Origin: a virus
Virus record (IMG/VR): IMGVR_UViG_3300041956_000050
Location: 1 to 64,000 of that record
Reading direction: 5' to 3' (one strand)
Length of the DNA stretch: 64,000 nucleotides
Below, piece after piece: positions 111 through 48,213 of the stretch. A program made the translations under genes and the position numbers. The notes beneath the pieces are model-generated. The model did not search any database and was not told the DNA's origin. It saw only the letters and a list, made by a program, of their open reading frames with translations. Position 1 is the stretch's first letter, and each line of letters begins with the position of its first letter.

Positions 111-815
111 ATGGGTTACAAGGTTCTAGTGGACGAAGTGACTGTCCACAAGACGATCAACAAGCTCCCGCAGCCGGATGGCTCGGTGATCTACCAGAAC
201 GGCCTCGGCCAGACGTACTACCGGGACGAGGTGGTTCCGGACGACCAGTTCGCTGAGGACTGGGCGGAAGCGCTCGAATCGGGCGAAGGTCCGCTCGGTG
301 AGTCGCTGAGCAAGCGGTTCGAGAAGGTCAGTGGTGACGGCAGTGGTGACACCGGCAAGCGCCTCGGTGCTCCGTTCGCGGGCTACGACGACATGGATGA
401 GGACGACGTTCTCAATGCCATGAAGATGTTGCCCTCGGCCGCGATCCAGCGGATCAAGGAGTACGAGGAGCAGCGCGACGATCCGCGTGAGCGCATCACT
501 GGCTACAACGTCGGCTACGGGGAGTCTGCTGTGGATCGCCAGGAGGGACGTGTCTCAAGCGATCCGCAGGACAGCGACCCGGAGAAGGCGTCTGCTCGCA
601 TCTCGACTCGCGAGGTGCCGGAGGACGGGCCGGTCGTGGCCGGTGAAGGTGTCACCGGTACTGGTGACCCGCAGGTTCCCTACGGCTCACGCGAGGACGA
701 CGAGAAGGGCGACATCAAGGGCAGCGGCAGCCCGCGCCGCCGTGGCCGTCGCGACCGACAGCCGAAGCCGCAGGAGGGCGGGGCCGACCCGTCTCTTGCC
801 AAGGCGAACGAGTAG
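111..815 (+). CDS. Uncharacterised head-region protein, 234 aa
   Basis: The ATG at 111 follows a strong ribosome site (GGGAGGTGACAAC). The product is hydrophilic and acidic. Residues 1-55 look folded and include a YYRDEVVPDD stretch. The middle contains a short MDEDDVLNAMKMLPSAAIQRIKEYE helix-rich part. The last 90 residues are low complexity and end in a basic SPRRRGRRDRQPKP patch. No catalytic motif or membrane segment is seen. Its place just before connector genes suggests a virion head or head-tail joining protein; that is inference from position only. Confidence 0.7.
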   Translation: MGYKVLVDEVTVHKTINKLPQPDGSVIYQNGLGQTYYRDEVVPDDQFAEDWAEALESGEGPLGESLSKRFEKVSGDGSGDTGKRLGAPFAGYDDMDEDDVLNAMKMLPSAAIQRIKEYEEQRDDPRERITGYNVGYGESAVDRQEGRVSSDPQDSDPEKASARISTREVPEDGPVVAGEGVTGTGDPQVPYGSREDDEKGDIKGSGSPRRRGRRDRQPKPQEGGADPSLAKANE

Positions 816-4027: not shown

Positions 4028-4533
4028 AGGTCGTAGAGAAGATCTGGTCAAACGGAGGAGGCGACAAGCTAGACGACATACTTAGATGGCCTGCCAAGCG
4101 TGTTGAAGGCTTCTACAAGGCCATCGTCACGCGGGAGGCTGTCGAGTCGATAGAGCAGCAGCGCCGGGACATGATCTCGGCGTGTTACTCGAATCCGAAC
4201 TGGGACGGCAAGGACAACGCAAGCAAGCGCGAGGAATACCTCAGAGACATCAACAGGCACTTCAATGAAGCAATCACCGCGATCTACTACCCCGAAGAAC
4301 ACAAGGCTCAGAAGGTGGACTGGAGCAACCCGTTCTTCGCGGCACACAAGCGCGAGATGTTGCGGACGAAGAAGCTGTTCGAGCAGGCCACCGGCCGCAC
4401 GTTGGGCGATGTCATCGAGGAAGAAGACAAGAGTGGTGTCGATCAGGTGCAGAACGGGAGCACCAACGGCCACGCTCGCGGCAGGGACTATGACCAGATC
4501 CCTGACGAAGACAAGATCCCGAGGAATACATGA
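3338..4533 (+). CDS. Tail assembly chaperone, frameshifted long form (GT-like)
   Basis: A -1 shift on T TTT TTT (3934-3940, codons CGT TTT TTT) moves the ribosome into a frame that is open, without stops, from there to the TGA at 4531-4533. The extension adds about 198 residues, including EVVEKIWSNGGGDKLDDILRWPAKRVEGFY and YLRDINRHFNEAI. The two-frame layout directly upstream of the tape measure gene matches the conserved G/GT chaperone system of siphophages. The extension has no good start of its own (first ATG 4171, no ribosome site). Confidence 0.85.
3934..3940 (+). promoter_or_regulatory. Programmed -1 frameshift slippery site
   Basis: Seven T in a row give the heptamer T TTT TTT in the zero frame of the short chaperone. 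Both tRNAs can re-pair after slipping back one base. The site lies about 90 bases before the zero-frame stop, and the -1 frame stays open to 4533. Confidence 0.85.
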
Positions 4534-4555
4534 CAACAGTGAGAAAGGAGGTGAG

Positions 4556-4771
4556 ATGGTTACCGCGAAGTTCAAGGTCAGTCGCCGCAACGACATGGGT
4601 TGGGCGACCGAGGTCGAGTTGACTCCCGACTACGCCGATGGGCGCAACAAGGAGTGGGCTGAGGCCACCCCGGCAGGCATGTGCCGGATGACGATCAAGA
4701 ACGAACTCGCTGCGAAGCAGTTCAGGGAGAACCAGCCGGTCACTCTGACGTTCAGCTTCGATGACGAGTAG
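4556..4771 (+). CDS. Small conserved tail-region protein, 71 aa
   Basis: It has an excellent ribosome site (GAAAGGAGGTGAG before ATG 4556). The sequence resembles a small phage family that I recall as common near tail genes: an N-terminal AKFKVSRRN, a middle WAEATPAGMCRMTIKN and a final QPVTLTFSFDDE, probably a small beta-rich fold. It separates the chaperone pair from the tape measure gene. The function of this family is not known to me. Confidence 0.75.
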   Translation: MVTAKFKVSRRNDMGWATEVELTPDYADGRNKEWAEATPAGMCRMTIKNELAAKQFRENQPVTLTFSFDDE

Positions 4772-13072: not shown

Positions 13073-15837
13073 CAGCAATCGGTGCATCCGGCTTCAGCAT
13101 CAACACGCTGCTCGGCTCGACCACTGGTCTTGCCATCGGTGATGCTGGCAAGATTCTTCCGGGCACCGGCGTTGATGGCAACCGTGCTGGCACTTCGGTT
13201 CCTGGCGGCATCGAGTCGGTGCTGGAGTACAACGGCATCTATCTCAATGTCCGTGATTGGATAGACACTTATCTTGTCACTATCATCGGTGGCCTCGATG
13301 ATGCTGATGTGCGTGATACTCGCGAGGTCAACCCTGGCTTCCACGGAGAGACGGCGTTCCCGGCCTACTACGGCGGGCGCACGATCACGCTGACTGGCAA
13401 GATCATTGCGCATACCCTGGCCAAGCTGCGCGACATGCAGCGAGGGCTTCGGCAGGCGTTCTCGGAGATCGACCACGAGCTTCCCCTGATCTTCCGTACA
13501 CCTGACCCCGATCTTGACATGATGATCATGTGCAAGAAGTCGCAGCCGATCCAGATGACGGAGGAGCAGCGCACGGCCAATCACTTCGAGCGCGCGTTCC
13601 TGATCACGTTGCGGGCGAGCAATCCACGCTTCTTGAGTGTCAGCGAGGTTTACAACTCGACGAAGTTTGCCGATGTGTCCGCTTTTGGCATTCCTGATCA
13701 GGTCACCACCGAAACCTTTGACTCTCCCGGCATCTTCACTCAGTACAACGAGCGCGGTCATGGATTCGTCATCACTGGCGGCAAACTGACGTATGACACC
13801 AGCCTGCCCGCTGACAACTTCGTGAACCTGATCGCGGAGCCGGACTTCCAAGAAATCGATTACCAGAGCCATCCCACGACCATCGTGGTCACGAACGGCA
13901 TACTGGAAATTGCCAACTCTGGTGGCGTTTTGGACAACGGTAAGCACGGCGTTCTCCGGAACCCGGTGGCAGCTTCCGTCATCTCGGCGCGGTGGGACGT
14001 GAATGGCATCGCGCCGGGGGCATACTCAGCGATTGGGTACATGCGCTCTCCCTTCAGATCACGCCAGGGGCGGCTGATGGTCGAGTGGCTCGATGCTTCC
14101 AACAACATTCTTGGCTCTCAGTACACGGAGATCACGACGACCGGCCTCTGGCAGAAGCTCAGCATCCAGGGAGCCATCGCACCGGCAGGAACGGCGAAGT
14201 CCCGCTGGTATCTTCTTGTAAACTTTGTTGATGCGAACGAGGAGCACCACATCGACAAGATGCTCGTCGTCGGTGGGAATGTGTTCCCTCCGGAGGGCTA
14301 CTTCGACGGCAGCAATTCGCTGGCCGACTGGACAGACGAGGGCAACTTGATCATCTCGGGCAGCACTTCCAAGCAGCCCCAGTACAGCATCCTGACAACT
14401 TCGCGGAGCTACAAGAACGCCATGCAGGTTGTCAAGTTCACGACTCCGGCAACACTCCCCACTCCGCGCGTGGGCGAGATCCGCCTGGTCATGAGCTATC
14501 TCAATGACGACAACTACGTTTACGCTTACATCGGGGAGAAGGGTGTGAGCGGGCCTCCTCCGAGCGGCAGGCTCTACATGGGCTTCAAGCAAGTCCTGAA
14601 TGGCGTCGATGACTTCACTGACGCGGCGCTGGGCGACTTCCTTCTCGATCCCAGTACGACGTACTGGTTCCTGGCGTACCTCAAGGACGACGTGATCCAC
14701 GCTGAGGTCACTGACCTTGACCCCTACACCAGAGATGTCTCCTATACTAACATCGACCACTCCACCAGCAGCTTGTTCTTCCTCACGCCGGAGTTGAAGG
14801 CGATCTACAACAGCCTCACTCCGATGCAACTAGTAGTGATGGAGAAGGGTGCGCGGATTCCGGTTGAGGAGTGGATCTATCAGCCGCTCGAAGCCCCGAG
14901 CGGTTGGGCGCACAAGTACCCGGTGAGCTACATCCGGTACGACACGATTTGGGTCAGAGGCGGCAGGATCGTCCCGCTCGGTGTGAAGGGTCCGCTGCTC
15001 GTGCGCAGCGATCTTCCCTACAACGTCGAAAACGGGCGCATCTCGGCCAAGATCAGACACAACGGAATCCCGACTGACCTGAATGTCACGTGGGGAATAG
15101 CTGTCAAGGTTCTTGGTGCAGAAGATTTCATTGTCGGGCAGATGGAGTACACGGCCACCGCCACACCGGCCATTCAGGTCCGGCTGACGCGGTGGAACGA
15201 AGGTACCCCCTTCGGCAGTAGCCTTGGCACCGCTGCTGTGACGCCAGCCAACTTCCCCGCGAACACCGATGCGTGGATCGCGGTTGTCATCAATGGCGAT
15301 CAATTCACGCTTGAGTTCTGGAAGACCGATCCCGCGCTCGGTGGTGCAGCTACGCACACAACCGGCGCGATCACGCTGTCCGGCGCGAACAAGACGAAGT
15401 ACGGCGCTGGCATCAAGGGCCAGGTAGGGATCATCTACGACGCGCCCAAGGCAGCCAGGGCGATCTCGATTGACGACTTCAAGATCGAGCAGCAGAGCTT
15501 CGATGACACTGCCTTCCTTATCTCCAATGATGGCAACTTCTCTGCTCAGCCTGAGATTCACATCATCGGGCCGATGACAAACCCGGTGATCGTCAACGAA
15601 TCCAATGGCGACTGGATGTCCATCCCAACTACCATCCCTGTTGATGAGGAGTGGATCATCGACATCGAGGGGCGCAGGATGTACCGCAAGAGTGATGACG
15701 CGAATCGCTTCCGGTATCTCGATGCGAACTCCGACTGGCTGGAGATCGAGCCAGGAACGAACTACATCAGCCTGACAGCCACTGGGATGACGGCGACATC
15801 TCAGATGGACATGCGCTTTCACCACACGGTGATGTGA
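13069..15837 (+). CDS. Distal tail (Dit-like) protein with carbohydrate-binding-like domains
   Basis: The 922-residue protein starts with a domain resembling Dit/siphovirus tail component proteins: GIYLNVRDWIDTYLVTIIGG, a GFHGE turn, GGRTITLTGKII and a following helix (KLRDMQRGLRQAF), ending near NPRFLSV at about residue 190. The rest is beta-rich, with jelly-roll-like segments (for example WQKLSIQGAIAPAGTAK near 365 and NVTWGIAVKVLGAEDF near 675). Such added domains in Dit proteins usually bind sugars. It would form the hub ring at the tail tip and help recognise the cell surface. Confidence 0.75.
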   Translation: MTAIGASGFSINTLLGSTTGLAIGDAGKILPGTGVDGNRAGTSVPGGIESVLEYNGIYLNVRDWIDTYLVTIIGGLDDADVRDTREVNPGFHGETAFPAYYGGRTITLTGKIIAHTLAKLRDMQRGLRQAFSEIDHELPLIFRTPDPDLDMMIMCKKSQPIQMTEEQRTANHFERAFLITLRASNPRFLSVSEVYNSTKFADVSAFGIPDQVTTETFDSPGIFTQYNERGHGFVITGGKLTYDTSLPADNFVNLIAEPDFQEIDYQSHPTTIVVTNGILEIANSGGVLDNGKHGVLRNPVAASVISARWDVNGIAPGAYSAIGYMRSPFRSRQGRLMVEWLDASNNILGSQYTEITTTGLWQKLSIQGAIAPAGTAKSRWYLLVNFVDANEEHHIDKMLVVGGNVFPPEGYFDGSNSLADWTDEGNLIISGSTSKQPQYSILTTSRSYKNAMQVVKFTTPATLPTPRVGEIRLVMSYLNDDNYVYAYIGEKGVSGPPPSGRLYMGFKQVLNGVDDFTDAALGDFLLDPSTTYWFLAYLKDDVIHAEVTDLDPYTRDVSYTNIDHSTSSLFFLTPELKAIYNSLTPMQLVVMEKGARIPVEEWIYQPLEAPSGWAHKYPVSYIRYDTIWVRGGRIVPLGVKGPLLVRSDLPYNVENGRISAKIRHNGIPTDLNVTWGIAVKVLGAEDFIVGQMEYTATATPAIQVRLTRWNEGTPFGSSLGTAAVTPANFPANTDAWIAVVINGDQFTLEFWKTDPALGGAATHTTGAITLSGANKTKYGAGIKGQVGIIYDAPKAARAISIDDFKIEQQSFDDTAFLISNDGNFSAQPEIHIIGPMTNPVIVNESNGDWMSIPTTIPVDEEWIIDIEGRRMYRKSDDANRFRYLDANSDWLEIEPGTNYISLTATGMTATSQMDMRFHHTVM

Positions 15838-16240: not shown

Positions 16241-17412
16241 TGCTGTGGAAATTCATTCTTGTCAACAGCAATGATCTCTCGCATATAGGCGAGCTTTCAC
16301 AGGCGCGCAGCAAGCATCTTGAGGTCGTGCTCGGCAAGCCCGGAGCAGCATCGTTCACGTATCCGATGGACGCGGACTATGCCGAGTCTGTCCAGGCGTA
16401 CAAGAGCGGAATCAAGGCGATGCGCTGGAACCGCAAGGCGACCGAGGCAGCCGGTCATGACGTGTGGGATTGCCACTGGTCCGGCTATGTGCTGCCGATT
16501 GACGAGACTGTTGACCAGAATCGGATGACTGTCTCGTGCGTTGGGTGGCAGCAGCGCCTGGCCAAGCGGTTCGTGCGCCGCGACAAGATCTACGCGGCTG
16601 CCGATGATGGCGCAATCGTGCAGGATCTGCTTGCCGAGGTGAACCTGACGACTACGCCTGCACCGGATAGCTACCCGGTCCCGGTCCCAGCAGGCTCAAC
16701 TCCTAACACGCCAACATGGCTGTCATGGGGTGGGGTGCAGCCGAACGAGGGCGCGGGTGGCGCGACGGCCTATGTGGATCTGACGACCATCGGGGCGGGC
16801 CGCAACAAGACGGTGCAGAAGTACACCTACGTCGGCTCAGCCATCGATGAACTGATGGGGATCGAGTACGGTGGCGATCTCGTAGTTGACCCTCTGACAA
16901 GATCAGTGACATGGCACCGAAAGTACCGGCGCATCCGCGACGATGTGGTGATCGGCTTCCAGTGGGGTCCGCAAAATGCGAGAGCTTTTAGCCGCAATTT
17001 GGAGGCTGACAGCCAGGTCAACTACCTCGTCGCCTCTGGAGCGCCCGGAACAACGCCGCAGTACGCACACGATGCAACACAGCAGAGCCAGATCGGCTTG
17101 ATCGAGGAGAGCGTCGTCCTCTCCGACGTGAAAGACAACAGTGTTCTACTGGCTTACGCTGGCGGCGAGATCCTGATTCGTAACAACGGCCTGATCACCT
17201 ACACGATCCAGCCGTTCCCGCTGCCCTATGACCGTCCGAGTAATGTGCCTGAGGCGTTCCTTGACTACCGCGTCGGTGACCAGATCCGGATCACCGCTGT
17301 GCATCCTCCCCGCGTCGGTATCCGCAACCAGGCGGTGCGACTGTTCGGCATGACGATTGACATCAATGACGACGGAGTTGGTACGCTCGGCCCGCTACAG
17401 GTGGCTCCATGA
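16240..17412 (+). CDS. Baseplate/tail hub protein, ReqiPepy6 Gp37-like
   Basis: The 390-residue protein begins WKFILVNSNDLSHIGEL and shows the layout of actinophage minor tail proteins related to the ReqiPepy6 Gp37-like family: an RSKHLEVVLGKPGAASFTYP segment, WSGYVLPIDE, CVGWQQRLAKRFVRR, a YVGSAIDELM helix and a C-terminal DYRVGDQIRITA domain. These are known from hub proteins that follow the distal tail gene. ATG 16240 overlaps the HNH stop; GTG 16237 is an alternative. It overlaps the fibre gene by ATGA. Confidence 0.75.
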   Translation: MLWKFILVNSNDLSHIGELSQARSKHLEVVLGKPGAASFTYPMDADYAESVQAYKSGIKAMRWNRKATEAAGHDVWDCHWSGYVLPIDETVDQNRMTVSCVGWQQRLAKRFVRRDKIYAAADDGAIVQDLLAEVNLTTTPAPDSYPVPVPAGSTPNTPTWLSWGGVQPNEGAGGATAYVDLTTIGAGRNKTVQKYTYVGSAIDELMGIEYGGDLVVDPLTRSVTWHRKYRRIRDDVVIGFQWGPQNARAFSRNLEADSQVNYLVASGAPGTTPQYAHDATQQSQIGLIEESVVLSDVKDNSVLLAYAGGEILIRNNGLITYTIQPFPLPYDRPSNVPEAFLDYRVGDQIRITAVHPPRVGIRNQAVRLFGMTIDINDDGVGTLGPLQVAP

Positions 17413-29270: not shown

Positions 29271-30545
29271 GTGGACATAGAGAGAGCGCTGCTGAGCAAA
29301 GCTCTCGCGACTGGAGAGCTTGCCGAACTGGTCGCTCGTGGTATCGAGTACGACCACTTCGCTGACGAGGATCTAGGCGACCTATACGACTGGGCCACTG
29401 ATGTCATGGCCAAGCACGTGCATCCGCCGTCGATGGCTGCCTCCCGCGAGGAGTTCCCTGACTTCAAACCATTGTTGACAAAGGACCCGCTGTCCTGGCA
29501 TATCGAGCGCTTCGTGCGCCGCGTCAAGGAGCGGATGGCTGTCGAACTGGTACGCAACTACCACGACCAGCTAGAAGACCCGAATGAGATCGATGAGATC
29601 GAGCTACGGGCGCTGGAGATGGCGCGACAGTTGACAGAGGTTGTGCCGTCACCGAAGGCTCGCCGCTTCTCCGAGGGCAAGGCGCGCAAGGAGGAGTACG
29701 AGCGGCGCAAGAAGAAGGACATCATTCATGGCATCCCGCTCGGCATCCCGACGTTCGACAAGCTGACGCTGGGCACGCAGCCGCACGAACTGGTGATTTG
29801 GGGTGGCCCACCTGGCGGCGGCAAGACCACCGGCCTCCAGTACTCCTCGATGCACGGTTACATGCATGGTGAGACGGTGCTGTTCGTCAGCCTGGAGGTT
29901 GAGGCAGAGCAGATCCTCCGGAAGTTCGACACAATGTTGACAAACATCCGCTACCACGCGCTCAAGGCGCTGGATCTGAACCCGGATGAGGAGGAGAAGT
30001 GGCACGAGATCCTTGAGCGTGCCGAGGAGGAGAAGGCGCACCGGGACATCATCATCGTTGACGATATCCGCAACTGCACCGTGGACAAGGTTGCCGCACA
30101 GCAGATCCGCTACAAGCCTGGCCTCGTCGTCGTTGACTACCTTGAGGAGATGCGCACACCGCGCAACGTGGCCGGTTGGGAGGGCGTGGCAGCCAATGGT
30201 CGCGGCCTCAAGCAGCAGGCGCGCACGACCCGCACGCCGTACATCACGGCCACTCAGCTAAACCGTGAGGGCGAGACGGCGTATCAGAGCGCGCAGAAGA
30301 TTGCGGACATGCTCATAGTGTTGGTGCCTCCGGACGAGGACGACGAAGATCCGACGACGATGAAGCTGCTGCTGCGCAAGTACCGCGACGGCCCGTCCCG
30401 CAAGACCGTCAACATGCACTGGGATCTCAACATCATGGACATCCATGAGGCGGATGCTACGACCAACGGGCGCTTCGCTCCGCGCAAGCTCGGGGATCTC
30501 AAGAAGCAGAAGATCAACCCCTGGACGGCGAAGGCCGGACGATGA
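29271..30545 (+). CDS. DnaB-like replicative helicase
   Basis: The 424-residue protein has an N-terminal helical domain (MDIERALLSKALATGELAEL...) like DnaB, a linker, and a RecA-type ATPase domain: Walker A GGPPGGGKTTG (about 178-188), FVSLEVEAEQILRKF (the conserved Glu after Walker A), a Walker B LVVVDYLEEM (about 284-293), and TRTPYITATQLNREGE with the sensor Gln. It unwinds the replication fork. GTG 29271 has only a weak ribosome site. A tRNA-like element lies directly downstream. Confidence 0.88.
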   Translation: MDIERALLSKALATGELAELVARGIEYDHFADEDLGDLYDWATDVMAKHVHPPSMAASREEFPDFKPLLTKDPLSWHIERFVRRVKERMAVELVRNYHDQLEDPNEIDEIELRALEMARQLTEVVPSPKARRFSEGKARKEEYERRKKKDIIHGIPLGIPTFDKLTLGTQPHELVIWGGPPGGGKTTGLQYSSMHGYMHGETVLFVSLEVEAEQILRKFDTMLTNIRYHALKALDLNPDEEEKWHEILERAEEEKAHRDIIIVDDIRNCTVDKVAAQQIRYKPGLVVVDYLEEMRTPRNVAGWEGVAANGRGLKQQARTTRTPYITATQLNREGETAYQSAQKIADMLIVLVPPDEDDEDPTTMKLLLRKYRDGPSRKTVNMHWDLNIMDIHEADATTNGRFAPRKLGDLKKQKINPWTAKAGR

Positions 30546-30549
30546 CCAA

Positions 30550-30620
30550 GCCCGCTAGCACGAAGGTGTGTGCCTCCCCGTTGCTGGGGAGGAGGCAGGA
30601 TTCGATCTCCTGAGCGGGCA
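30550..30620 (+). tRNA. tRNA-like gene with 6-nt anticodon loop, isotype not assignable
   Basis: A full cloverleaf can be drawn with only Watson-Crick pairs: acceptor GCCCGCT/AGCGGGC (30550-30556, 30613-30619), D stem GCAC/GTGC (30558-30561, 30570-30573) with GG in the loop, anticodon stem TCCCC/GGGGA (30575-30579, 30586-30590), five variable bases, and T stem CAGGA/TCCTG with loop TTCGATC (30596-30612) directly joined to the acceptor. Departures from a normal tRNA: the anticodon loop is 6 nt (GTTGCT), one base is missing between acceptor and D stem, the 53-61 pair is A-T, and no CCA is encoded (A then TTG). It may be a degenerate tRNA or a tRNA mimic. Confidence 0.6.
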
Positions 30621-30625
30621 TTGCA

Positions 30626-31405
30626 ATGACTATTTACGTCGATCAGTTTCCTGAGGGTTGGGGCCGCTGGACAGGCGGTGGGCACATGCTCGGCACCGAC
30701 CTTGACGAGCTACACGCCATGGCGGCGCACCTGGGCCTTCGTCTAGCTTGGTTTCAGGACAAGACGTTCGCGCACTACGATCTGACGCGCAGCAAGCGCG
30801 ACAAGGCACTGGCAGCCGGTGCGGTGGCAATTGACTTCTACGATGAGCGCATCCCCGATGGTGTGCTGATGAAGAATGGCGACGGCACTTACGAGACGCA
30901 CGGAGAGAGAATGGCGAGAAGGAATCCGGAGACTTGGTTCACGAAGAGGGAAGGCGGAAAGACAGTTCACAATTGGCCGTCCAACTTCTTCATCGAGCCG
31001 GACGGGACGGATGTCGAGCACGAGTATCAGGCTGAGAAGCATCGCGGCCATCCGTGGCGCGTGAAGACGATCATGTGCGCTCGCACTCCCGGCCAGGCGA
31101 AGCGGCTGGGACGGCGCTGGAAGCTCAACCGCTACCAGAAGATGGAATGGGACAACCGCCGCAATCAGGCGATGTACGAGTTGGTCCGGCGCAAGATCGA
31201 GGACCATCCGGAGATCGCCTTCGCTCTTGTCTGCACTGATGACGAGGTTTTGGTCGAGAAGAACTGGTGGCACGACAACTACTGGGGCGACTGTACTTGT
31301 CTCCAGTGTTTCCGTACTGGCGAGAACATTCTCGGCTACATCCTGATGGCGATCCGCGACGAGTTCAATGCCACGTTCTCTGAGCAAAACGCTCGCGCGG
31401 CTTGA
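30626..31405 (+). CDS. DUF4031-NADAR fusion protein
   Basis: The 259-residue protein joins two domains. Residues 1-80 (MTIYVDQFPEGWGRWTGGGH, LDELHAMAAHLGLRLAWFQ, HYDLTRSKRDKAL) follow the DUF4031 pattern. Residues about 112-255 follow the NADAR (YbiA-like) pattern: NWPSNFF, VEHEYQAEKH, TPGQAKRLGRRW, a W-x-x-x-x-x-x-M-Y helix, LVCTDDEVLVEKNWWHDNYW and GENILGYILMAIRDEF. NADAR enzymes break N-glycosidic bonds of ADP-ribosylated nucleotides or related riboflavin intermediates. A role against ADP-ribosylating host defences is a hypothesis. It overlaps the primase start by 38 bases. Confidence 0.75.
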   Translation: MTIYVDQFPEGWGRWTGGGHMLGTDLDELHAMAAHLGLRLAWFQDKTFAHYDLTRSKRDKALAAGAVAIDFYDERIPDGVLMKNGDGTYETHGERMARRNPETWFTKREGGKTVHNWPSNFFIEPDGTDVEHEYQAEKHRGHPWRVKTIMCARTPGQAKRLGRRWKLNRYQKMEWDNRRNQAMYELVRRKIEDHPEIAFALVCTDDEVLVEKNWWHDNYWGDCTCLQCFRTGENILGYILMAIRDEFNATFSEQNARAA

Positions 31406-45758: not shown

Positions 45759-46451
45759 ATGGGTGGCACAGATATCGCCAGGGCTGACGAAGTTGGCCTC
45801 ACAGACCGCCAGATAGGCGCGCTGGGCCGATTGCACCGGCTCGGAGCTAAGCCTCGCATCGAGGGCGAGGTGTACGACTCAGACCCGCAGATTCGCGCTC
45901 TGCAACTGGTCTACGAGGGCAAGATGGGTGGCAAGGGCCTGGGGCAAGGTCGGCCTCGAACCGGCGTGGATCGCAAGGCTCGCGCGGCTGAGGTGATTGC
46001 GGCTGAGATCCGCGAGCGCTTTACCGGCAGGATGATCAGGGCTATTGACAGAGCCTTGAAGAAGGACGCCGGAACCCGCGCTAATCTTGATGCAGTGAAG
46101 CTGGCGCTCGACATCGAGAACCGCGAGGCAGCGCTGGCACTGAAGGAATACGAGGCCGAGTTCGACACCGCCACAAAGGAGCAGCTAATTGCCACCCTCT
46201 TCGAGCTTGTCGCGGAACCGCAGACAGCGGCAGCTATCGAAGGAACAGCCTGGGACATCACAGACGCGGAGGTCGTTGAAGATCCATCCGCTTCTGGAGA
46301 GAGTGGGGGTAACGGAAGTGCCCCCAGTGTTGGCAGCAATGGGGATCACTCCGGAGACTCTGGATCAGTTAGAGCCGTCCGACTTGCGCGACATCGTAAG
46401 CAGAGTGAAAACCCTTTCACGAAGGCTGCAATACGAAGGGCCGAGCAATGA
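45759..46451 (+). CDS. Terminase small subunit, putative
   Basis: The 230-residue protein precedes and overlaps the large terminase. Residues 55-140 hold QIRALQLVYEGKMGGKGLGQ, a basic PRTGVDRKARAAEVIAAEIR and helical segments (MIRAIDRALKKDAGTRANLD), as in DNA-binding small terminases. The C-terminal 70 residues are Ser/Gly-rich. ATG 45759 is predicted from its leaderless-type promoter. The assignment rests on position and general character, since small terminases share little sequence. Confidence 0.6.
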   Translation: MGGTDIARADEVGLTDRQIGALGRLHRLGAKPRIEGEVYDSDPQIRALQLVYEGKMGGKGLGQGRPRTGVDRKARAAEVIAAEIRERFTGRMIRAIDRALKKDAGTRANLDAVKLALDIENREAALALKEYEAEFDTATKEQLIATLFELVAEPQTAAAIEGTAWDITDAEVVEDPSASGESGGNGSAPSVGSNGDHSGDSGSVRAVRLARHRKQSENPFTKAAIRRAEQ

Positions 46452-48213
46452 CGATGAGCTTCACGCCTGGATCAAGAAGAACATCGGTGTTGACATCCCT
46501 CGTGAGCCGGTCTGTGAAGATCACGTAGCACCCTTTCAGTTCCTGGCAGATCTCTTCTTCGAGCGCGTGCCCTCGGCGCTTGCGCTGGCGAATCGTGGTG
46601 GCTCCAAGACTTTCATCGTCGCGCTGCTCCACTACCTCAACTGCACGTACAAGGCCGGATGCGGCTGCCTGACCTTCGGGGCGACGGAGGCTCAGGGCAA
46701 TCGCTGTTATGGCAATATTGAGGACTGGTGCTACGTCCACGACGAAGATACTGGCAGGCGTACTGACACAGTTCTGCCGTTCATCAGGGAAAAGCCGAAG
46801 AAGTCACAGACGGTGTGGAAGACCGGCTCGGTGGTCGAGGTCGTGGCCGGGTCTGAGAATGCCGTCTCTGGCCCGCACCCGGCGAAGGCGCATGCCGACG
46901 AGATTGATCAGATGGAACGGCCGGTGTGGAACCAGAGCCGTGGTATGGCCGTCACTAATCGTGCCACTGGGCCGTTGCCGCTGTGGATGCAGAAGTACGA
47001 GGGAATGATCCCGCCGCAGGACATCGCTACGAGCACGCGCAACTCGACCAAGGGGCTGATGCAGGAGCTTCTGGATGAGATCGAGCAAGATGTCAAGGAT
47101 GGAAACATCGCACAGTTTGCGCTCTACACGTGGTGCATTTGGGAGACGATCAAGGAAGTCCCGAACTGCCGCTGTGTTGACAAGCGCCTGCGGCGGAAGC
47201 GCCTCAAGCAACTCGACATGGATGTTGACTCCCTCTGCGAGTGCAACCGCGTTGTGAAGGGCCGTTTGCCAAGTGGCAAGCCGAGGACCCTGGAGTCCAT
47301 CTGTAAGGGCAAGGCGTTCCGCTCGCGCGGCTGGAAGCCGTATGTAGATCTCGTGATGACGTTCAAGCGCAACACTCCTGGCACGTGGACGTTGCAGCAT
47401 GAGTGCCGCCACGGCATTGACGAGAACAACTACATCCAAGACTGGTCGCTGAACCTGTACGGCATCCGCCACTACGAGCCGCATCCGATGTACGGGCCGA
47501 TCTACCGGGGCGTTGACTGGGGATCGACGCACCCGGCCTGTGTGCTCTACTTCCAGTACCTGACAGCAGAGGTGCCAGCACTCGGGTTCGACTACGAGCC
47601 GATCTGGCTGGAGTCCGGGATCTATGTGCTGTTCCACGAGATCTACATCGCGGGCAGCGACAGCCAGACGCTCGCCAAGCGTGTCGTCATGGTTGACGAG
47701 CAGTACCGCAAGGAGTACGGCGGCGCTTGGAAGGTCAAGGCTACGTTCTGTGACCCGCAGGGAGCCGGTGACCGGATCATCTTCAACAATCACGGCATCC
47801 CTTCCATCTGGCCCGTCAAGACGCGCAACAAGATCCGCTTCATCGAGACAGTGCAGAACCTCGTCATTGATGACAAGTTCGCCGTCGATGTCGATGCCGC
47901 TCCGATGTTCTGCGAAGAGGTCGAGGGCTGGCAGAAGGACCCACGTACTGGCAAGGAGCTTGACAAGTACAACCACGCGATGGCGGCATGGCGCTACGGC
48001 ATCTCCAACGCCGAAGTGATCGAGAGCCACCGCAGCCAGAAGAAGAACAAGGCAGTCCAGTCCAATGGCGCACAGCCTCAGCGGCAGGCAGTAGTGAGCC
48101 GTCGCACACCGATGGCGGCTGAAGCTGGCGAGATCGTCTACGGTTCGATAGCATCGCGCGGAGGTTCGGCAGTTCCGCTCGACCCGCGCTTCACCCTCAA
48201 CGTGGACAAGTGA
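46303..48213 (+). CDS. terL: Terminase large subunit
   Basis: The 636-residue protein has an ATPase domain with a Walker A variant ANRGGSKT (about 96-103), a Walker B HADEID (about 197-202), and a C-terminal nuclease domain with YRGVDWGSTHP (about 401-411), DPQGAGDRI and the final MAAWRYG region. It packages and cuts DNA at the portal. Start is uncertain: GTG 46303 (behind GGAGA) or GTG 46318 both keep the folded part (PPVLAAMGITPETLDQLEPS). Either way it overlaps the small subunit by over 130 bases. Confidence 0.88.
   Translation: MGVTEVPPVLAAMGITPETLDQLEPSDLRDIVSRVKTLSRRLQYEGPSNDDELHAWIKKNIGVDIPREPVCEDHVAPFQFLADLFFERVPSALALANRGGSKTFIVALLHYLNCTYKAGCGCLTFGATEAQGNRCYGNIEDWCYVHDEDTGRRTDTVLPFIREKPKKSQTVWKTGSVVEVVAGSENAVSGPHPAKAHADEIDQMERPVWNQSRGMAVTNRATGPLPLWMQKYEGMIPPQDIATSTRNSTKGLMQELLDEIEQDVKDGNIAQFALYTWCIWETIKEVPNCRCVDKRLRRKRLKQLDMDVDSLCECNRVVKGRLPSGKPRTLESICKGKAFRSRGWKPYVDLVMTFKRNTPGTWTLQHECRHGIDENNYIQDWSLNLYGIRHYEPHPMYGPIYRGVDWGSTHPACVLYFQYLTAEVPALGFDYEPIWLESGIYVLFHEIYIAGSDSQTLAKRVVMVDEQYRKEYGGAWKVKATFCDPQGAGDRIIFNNHGIPSIWPVKTRNKIRFIETVQNLVIDDKFAVDVDAAPMFCEEVEGWQKDPRTGKELDKYNHAMAAWRYGISNAEVIESHRSQKKNKAVQSNGAQPQRQAVVSRRTPMAAEAGEIVYGSIASRGGSAVPLDPRFTLNVDK

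Follow-up and report, generated by a model that had tools for sequence, protein, structure and literature searches.

Canonical class I tRNAs (Rfam RF00005) carry U8 and a second linker base, A14, A21, a G53-C61 pair and a 7-nt anticodon loop with U33, and it is their acceptor/T half that is bound by RNase P, the tRNA 3' endonucleases, the CCA-adding enzyme and EF-Tu. The tRNA-like domain of tmRNA keeps the acceptor and the T arm and has no decoding anticodon. Animal mitochondrial tRNAs that lack the D or the T arm tolerate these losses and function (PMC2797822); such minimal tRNAs still decode, their anticodon loop being normal, and mitochondrial tRNAs located between genes mark cleavage sites. 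Finally, the phages MeganTheeKilla and Weasels2 contain decayed, tRNA-derived sequences that were overlooked by annotators.

The tRNA-like element described here lies in a 64,000-nt stretch of viral DNA (hereafter the window), which comprises bases 1-64000 of the 108,063-base record G000. The record belongs to a tailed phage (terminase, portal and replication module are present, according to Pfam and PHROG matches), uncultured and of soil-type source. The element resembles class I tRNAs in its TTCRA T loop, 5-nt variable region and D-loop GG, and is nearest to a tRNA-Lys(CTT) (L130), with which it shares the acceptor, the discriminator A and 4 of the 5 T-stem pairs. It differs from class I tRNAs in its 6-nt anticodon loop, the single linker base, the absence of U8, A14 and A21 and the A-T pair at 53-61, and from tRNA-Lys(CTT) in its D and anticodon arms, which are unrelated; it has no Rfam match. 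Unlike tmRNA, it possesses complete D and anticodon stems, spans only 71 nt and has no tag reading frame, and the ARAGORN tmRNA scan revealed no tmRNA in the window. It lies between genes, as mitochondrial tRNAs do, but its cleavage is a prediction, and what it has lost is precisely the anticodon loop that the mitochondrial minimal tRNAs keep. In contrast to the decayed tRNAs of MeganTheeKilla and Weasels2, in which the acceptors are broken, all its stems are intact.

Anatomy of the element and its place in the phage genome

The element and its neighbors are as follows:

29271..30545, + strand: DnaB-like replicative helicase gene (open reading frame; Pfam DnaB_C, 5e-25; PHROG 19, 4e-59)
30550..30620, + strand: whole tRNA-like element, including the discriminator A at 30620 (cloverleaf; relaxed ARAGORN; covariance model)
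30550..30556, + strand: acceptor stem, 5' strand GCCCGCT, pairing 7/7 with 30613-30619
30557..30557, + strand: linker, single base A (one deletion in the covariance-model alignment)
30558..30573, + strand: D arm, GCAC / loop GAAGGTGT / GTGC, with GG retained and A14 and A21 not
30574..30590, + strand: C26 and anticodon arm, TCCCC / GTTGCT / GGGGA, with a 6-nt loop (relaxed ARAGORN agrees)
30591..30595, + strand: variable region GGAGG, 5 nt
30596..30612, + strand: T arm, CAGGA / TTCGATC / TCCTG, with a consensus T loop
30613..30620, + strand: acceptor stem, 3' strand AGCGGGC, then the discriminator A; CCA is absent, and TTGCA and ATG come next
30626..31405, + strand: DUF4031-NADAR fusion gene (Pfam DUF4031, 5e-15; NADAR, 6e-19)

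The cloverleaf comprises 21 Watson-Crick pairs of 21, with zero G-U (acceptor 7/7, D 4/4, anticodon 5/5 and T 5/5), and every anatomical statement of the original prediction holds, including the 7/4/5/5 stems, the 6-nt loop, the single linker base and the A-T pair at 53-61. The upper half is that of a canonical tRNA, with a 7-bp acceptor, a 5-bp T stem, a TTCRA loop and the T arm joined directly to the acceptor. The anticodon loop GTTGCT is not the 7-nt loop with U33 of a canonical tRNA, and the tertiary bases also deviate, with A8, G14, T21 and A53-T61 at the positions occupied by U8, A14, A21 and G53-C61. The mismatch-laden stems of a pseudogene are likewise not found, with all 21 pairs intact. 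The absence of CCA, which the original prediction observed correctly, turned out to be ordinary and not a peculiarity of the element, because only ~13 of the 31 viral tRNAs called by ARAGORN among the loci of an acceptor/T-arm pattern scan encode it.

The element occupies 71 of the 80 bases between the helicase stop and the NADAR start (TGA-CCAA-element-TTGCA-ATG), with the stop 4 nt on its 5' side and the start 5 nt on its 3' side. A Shine-Dalgarno-like AGGAGG at 30590-30595 is located 30 nt upstream of the NADAR start, and the DUF4031-NADAR gene has no Shine-Dalgarno sequence at normal spacing; in G000 as a whole many genes carry one and many others do not.

The minimum-energy fold of the element (-38.7 kcal/mol, z ~ -3.2, with 0-3 of 200 shuffles equally stable) compares with z -3.0 for L130, a real tRNA with the same acceptor. 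This fold retains the acceptor, anticodon and T arms, with the D arm moved by a few bases in favor of a variant with a 4-nt loop; the anticodon stem can be extended to 6-7 bp via C26-G44, and has 7 bp in the minimum-energy structure.

Neither ARAGORN with default settings nor the Rfam RF00005 thresholds report the element, while ARAGORN with relaxed thresholds, the permissive search proposed in the original prediction, arrives at an identical cloverleaf, to which it assigns the 2-letter anticodon 'tg' (tRNA-?(Gln|Ala)). With permissive filters the sole Rfam match (whalefall-1) was judged to be due to chance. A covariance model built from 15 canonical tRNAs (R1) and used with filters off scored the element at 28.3 bits (rough E 7e-6), with 11.5 bits for the next best site of the window; because the training set was partly composed of tRNAs picked for a GCCCGC acceptor, and is thus biased towards the element, this score is support for a non-chance origin rather than proof.

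Independent of this bias are simulations on order-2 random sequence (740 Mb, composition of the window), which gave 9 cases of a TTCRA loop enclosed by a perfect T stem and acceptor (0.0026 per genome of the size of G000), none of them together with D and anticodon stems. The latter contribute a further factor of ~0.0015, hence the expectation is ~4e-6 such elements per genome, and across the G000 record a comparable structure score is found at 30550-30620 only. Chance origin of the cloverleaf, already considered unlikely in the original prediction, is thus ruled out.

The junction in related phages and similar elements in other records

The relatives of the helicase are found in G003 (68%), G001 (62%) and G004/G005 (48%), and the nearest one in G006 (88% over the first 76 residues, where the contig ends inside the helicase gene). 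A 21-bit covariance-model match in G006 (L076 5339-5377) reaches the beginning of a coding gene, and we set it aside as a chance match. The element was seen at the helicase-NADAR junction in none of these records: in G001 the two genes overlap and are thus joined directly, and in G003 they are separated by 700 bases that contain a small gene and, just before NADAR, a rod hairpin instead of a cloverleaf (L032:7910-7975, very stable, z -6.1, possibly inside a small open frame). The junction is therefore an insertion spot. The NADAR proteins of G001 and G003 also lack the N-terminal DUF4031 of the window fusion; DUF4031 and the tRNA-like element may have entered the window locus jointly.

A DNA-similarity search of phages revealed no homologues of the element, and its exact T-arm/acceptor pattern has no match in the viral contigs. 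In bacterial genomes the relaxed pattern identified three tRNA-Lys(CTT) genes only (L130-L132, from soil MAGs). With L130 the element has an identical acceptor and discriminator and 21 of the 3' 25 bases in common. An attP copy of a host tRNA 3' half would show a long exact match and a nearby integrase; the match to L130, the best among bacterial tRNAs, is not exact.

The element of the window is nevertheless not alone, which is the main addition of this work to the original prediction. An acceptor and T-arm pattern scan of viral contigs yielded 36 loci, most of them canonical tRNAs according to ARAGORN; L114 is near-normal and Asp-like, and L121 is a chance match. At least six further elements with a similar upper half and no usable anticodon arm were identified in three other viral records, at least three of them in the relative G001 and the others in unrelated viral contigs:

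G001 83623-83696, - strand: perfect acceptor and T arm, additional bases 5' of the D stem, bulged anticodon arm, 1-nt variable region; called Gln(ttg) by ARAGORN
G001 47004-47074: acceptor and T arm intact, D stem not clear
G001 45868-45946 (L021:365-443): acceptor, 8-nt T loop, GAGA-tetraloop hairpin replacing the anticodon arm
G012 14477-14539 (L120:5986-6048; contig 3300021142_000062): 63-nt cloverleaf with encoded CCA, 3-bp D stem, GCAA tetraloop replacing the anticodon loop
G012 16303-16371: one long central hairpin; not canonical by ARAGORN
G013 45518: 61 nt, no D arm; not canonical by ARAGORN

According to ARAGORN, G012 has zero normal tRNAs. The G001 element at 83623 is wedged between a stop and a start codon (TGA-GTTAC-element-CT-ATG) like the one in the window, with which it shares the GCCCGC acceptor (6 of 7 pairs), the CAGG/CCTG T stem (4 of 5 pairs), the discriminator A and 20 of 25 bases in the 3' part. 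Two pairs that differ do so in a compensatory manner (7-66, T-A to C-G, and 53-61, A-T to G-C), a covariation that is thin, being drawn from these two clearly comparable sequences only. Just upstream of G001 45868 (~L021:113-165) we noticed by eye a possible D-armless tRNA-like sequence with GGGCAAG/CTTGCCC as its acceptor, CTAAGAA as a 7-nt loop and mismatches in the T stem.

The element of the window and the six listed above share an acceptor/T half that is perfect or nearly so, lack a working anticodon and are flanked by co-directional genes (wherever the neighbors were inspected); by these features we delimit a putative class of non-decoding elements. Tight spacing before a start codon is found in only 2 of the 7; the rest have a spacer of 20-60 nt, some with a Shine-Dalgarno sequence. 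These misfit tRNAs in several phages suggest that the tRNA shape is reused for a non-decoding purpose. The titles and abstracts covered by a literature search contained no description of non-decoding phage tRNA-like elements. More speculatively, and with a probability that we consider low, the elements could represent a widespread, overlooked phage class that keeps the acceptor/T half, sometimes with a GNRA tetraloop, is excised from operons by the tRNA-processing enzymes of the host, and acts either as a junction processing signal or as a stable mimic occupying tRNA-binding proteins. The usual detectors with which phage tRNAs are counted depend on a normal anticodon arm. Should many phages hold such elements, neither codon supply nor replacement of cleaved tRNAs would explain them, and a processing or decoy role would be directly testable. 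The intact upper and free lower halves name the part of the tRNA that matters.

Proposed excision from the operon and competing explanations

The explanation that we prefer, tentatively and with slightly less than even confidence, is that the element is a tRNA-derived, non-decoding RNA, whose acceptor/T half is kept for tRNA-processing enzymes and which is excised from the operon at the junction. The element would be transcribed within the helicase-NADAR operon, as it is on the same strand and there is no space for a promoter of its own, so that release of a free RNA would require excision. The intact acceptor/T half would be recognized by RNase P, a tRNA 3' endonuclease, the CCA-adding enzyme and EF-Tu, and the lower half would have been rebuilt into a stable clamp with the anticodon no longer working. 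RNase P of the host could cut at 30549/30550, immediately beyond the stop codon of the helicase, and the 3' endonuclease after A30620. A stable RNA of tRNA-like form would be released by the two cuts, and the NADAR message would begin ~5 nt before its AUG and be nearly leaderless. Leaderless messages are common in mycobacteria (PMC4633059), a possible parallel.

The analysis demonstrates the anatomy, the non-chance origin, the wedged position between genes and the existence of similar elements, and from these we infer transcription, cleavage, an effect on the NADAR message and selection on the upper half. The role of a processing signal at the helicase-NADAR boundary, one of the possibilities named in the original prediction, fits the anatomy best, since the upper half is intact and the element begins 4 nt after a stop and ends 5 nt before a start, while the excision itself is conjectural. 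Against it stand the lack of a homologue at the same locus (direct join in G001, other sequence in G003), the tight spacing in only 2 of the 7 elements and the many G000 genes that likewise have no Shine-Dalgarno sequence.

Alternatively, the element could derive from a phage tRNA gene at an early stage of decay or rearrangement, canonical at first and now functionless after the loss of two bases and of its tertiary contacts. Broken, unannotated tRNAs do occur in tRNA-rich phages such as Weasels2 and MeganTheeKilla, the acceptor and discriminator are the same as in the L130 tRNA-Lys(CTT), with 21 of the 25 3' bases in common, and the absence of the element from the locus in relatives may mean that it is recent. 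However, the 21 pairs are Watson-Crick without exception, whereas at least 7 conserved unpaired features are gone (among them positions 8, 9, 14, 21 and 26 and the loop length), and neutral change would hit the stems too; the D and anticodon arms moreover show no recognizable sequence likeness to tRNA-Lys. The same covariance model identified unannotated tRNA remnants in the isolate phages:

Rhodococcus phage Weasels2 85650-85706 (L150:251-307): D-armless tRNA remnant, unannotated, broken acceptor
MeganTheeKilla 67400-67461 (L148:3201-3262): D-armless tRNA remnant, unannotated, broken acceptor
MeganTheeKilla 66204-66268: tRNA remnant, unannotated, broken acceptor

Genuine decay in tRNA-rich phages thus breaks the acceptor stem, and the combination of intact stems and lost unpaired positions speaks for selection on shape or recent rearrangement rather than for slow decay. 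The decaying tRNA of the original prediction is therefore poorly supported and we regard it as unlikely.

Quite improbable in our opinion is a structured leader of the NADAR gene, in which hairpins hide or present the AGGAGG at 30590-30595 and folding of the T arm brings it to 13 nt from the start. The AGGAGG is partly paired in the anticodon stem, and in G003 the NADAR start is likewise closely preceded by a very stable hairpin; however, a leader hairpin has no need of a 7-bp acceptor, a TTCGATC T loop and a discriminator A, and the G003 hairpin is a rod and may sit in a small open frame.

An even lower probability is assigned to a working unusual tRNA, charged and translating with a 6-base anticodon loop (e.g. 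a frameshifting tRNA). ARAGORN with relaxed thresholds does fold the element as tRNA-?(Gln|Ala), and the armless mitochondrial tRNAs mentioned above show that reduced tRNAs can function. Nonetheless, U8, A14, A21 and the 7-nt loop are lost, and the GNRA tetraloops or missing D arms of the related elements indicate that decoding is not their common trait.

Least probable of all is a decoy that occupies a host enzyme (toxin, maturation or modification) through its acceptor/T half, or an anticodon nuclease as the original prediction proposed: cleavage of tRNAs is a common bacterial defense to which some viruses respond with their own tRNAs (PMC12409363), but nothing directly supports such a role here, and an anticodon loop of abnormal size would be an unlikely lure for anticodon nucleases.

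Record ends and interrupted phage tRNAs

Two unrelated features were noticed in the course of this work. The G000 record closes with genes (L025:3401-4102 and 4130-4636) that nearly match those with which it opens (window 111-815 and 819-1328) without being the same, as would result if an assembly had joined two strains with a circularly permuted genome.

The other concerns interrupted tRNAs. Unannotated tRNAs with an anticodon arm interrupted by ~50-75 nt were found in Microbacterium phage A3Wally (104219-104560; L156:70-411) and in MeganTheeKilla (66274-66422; L148:2075-2223); possible explanations of these interruptions are short introns and small mobile inserts. In addition, the intron mode of ARAGORN reported anticodon loops with apparent short introns (38-80 nt) for Gordonia phage Pupper (15079-15194; L152), where the interrupted gene is annotated as a two-piece tRNA-Ala, as well as for G007 (L154) and G015 (L155). 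Close to the 3' end, two adjacent A3Wally inserts have GAGCCGAAGC...GATTATCTT in common.
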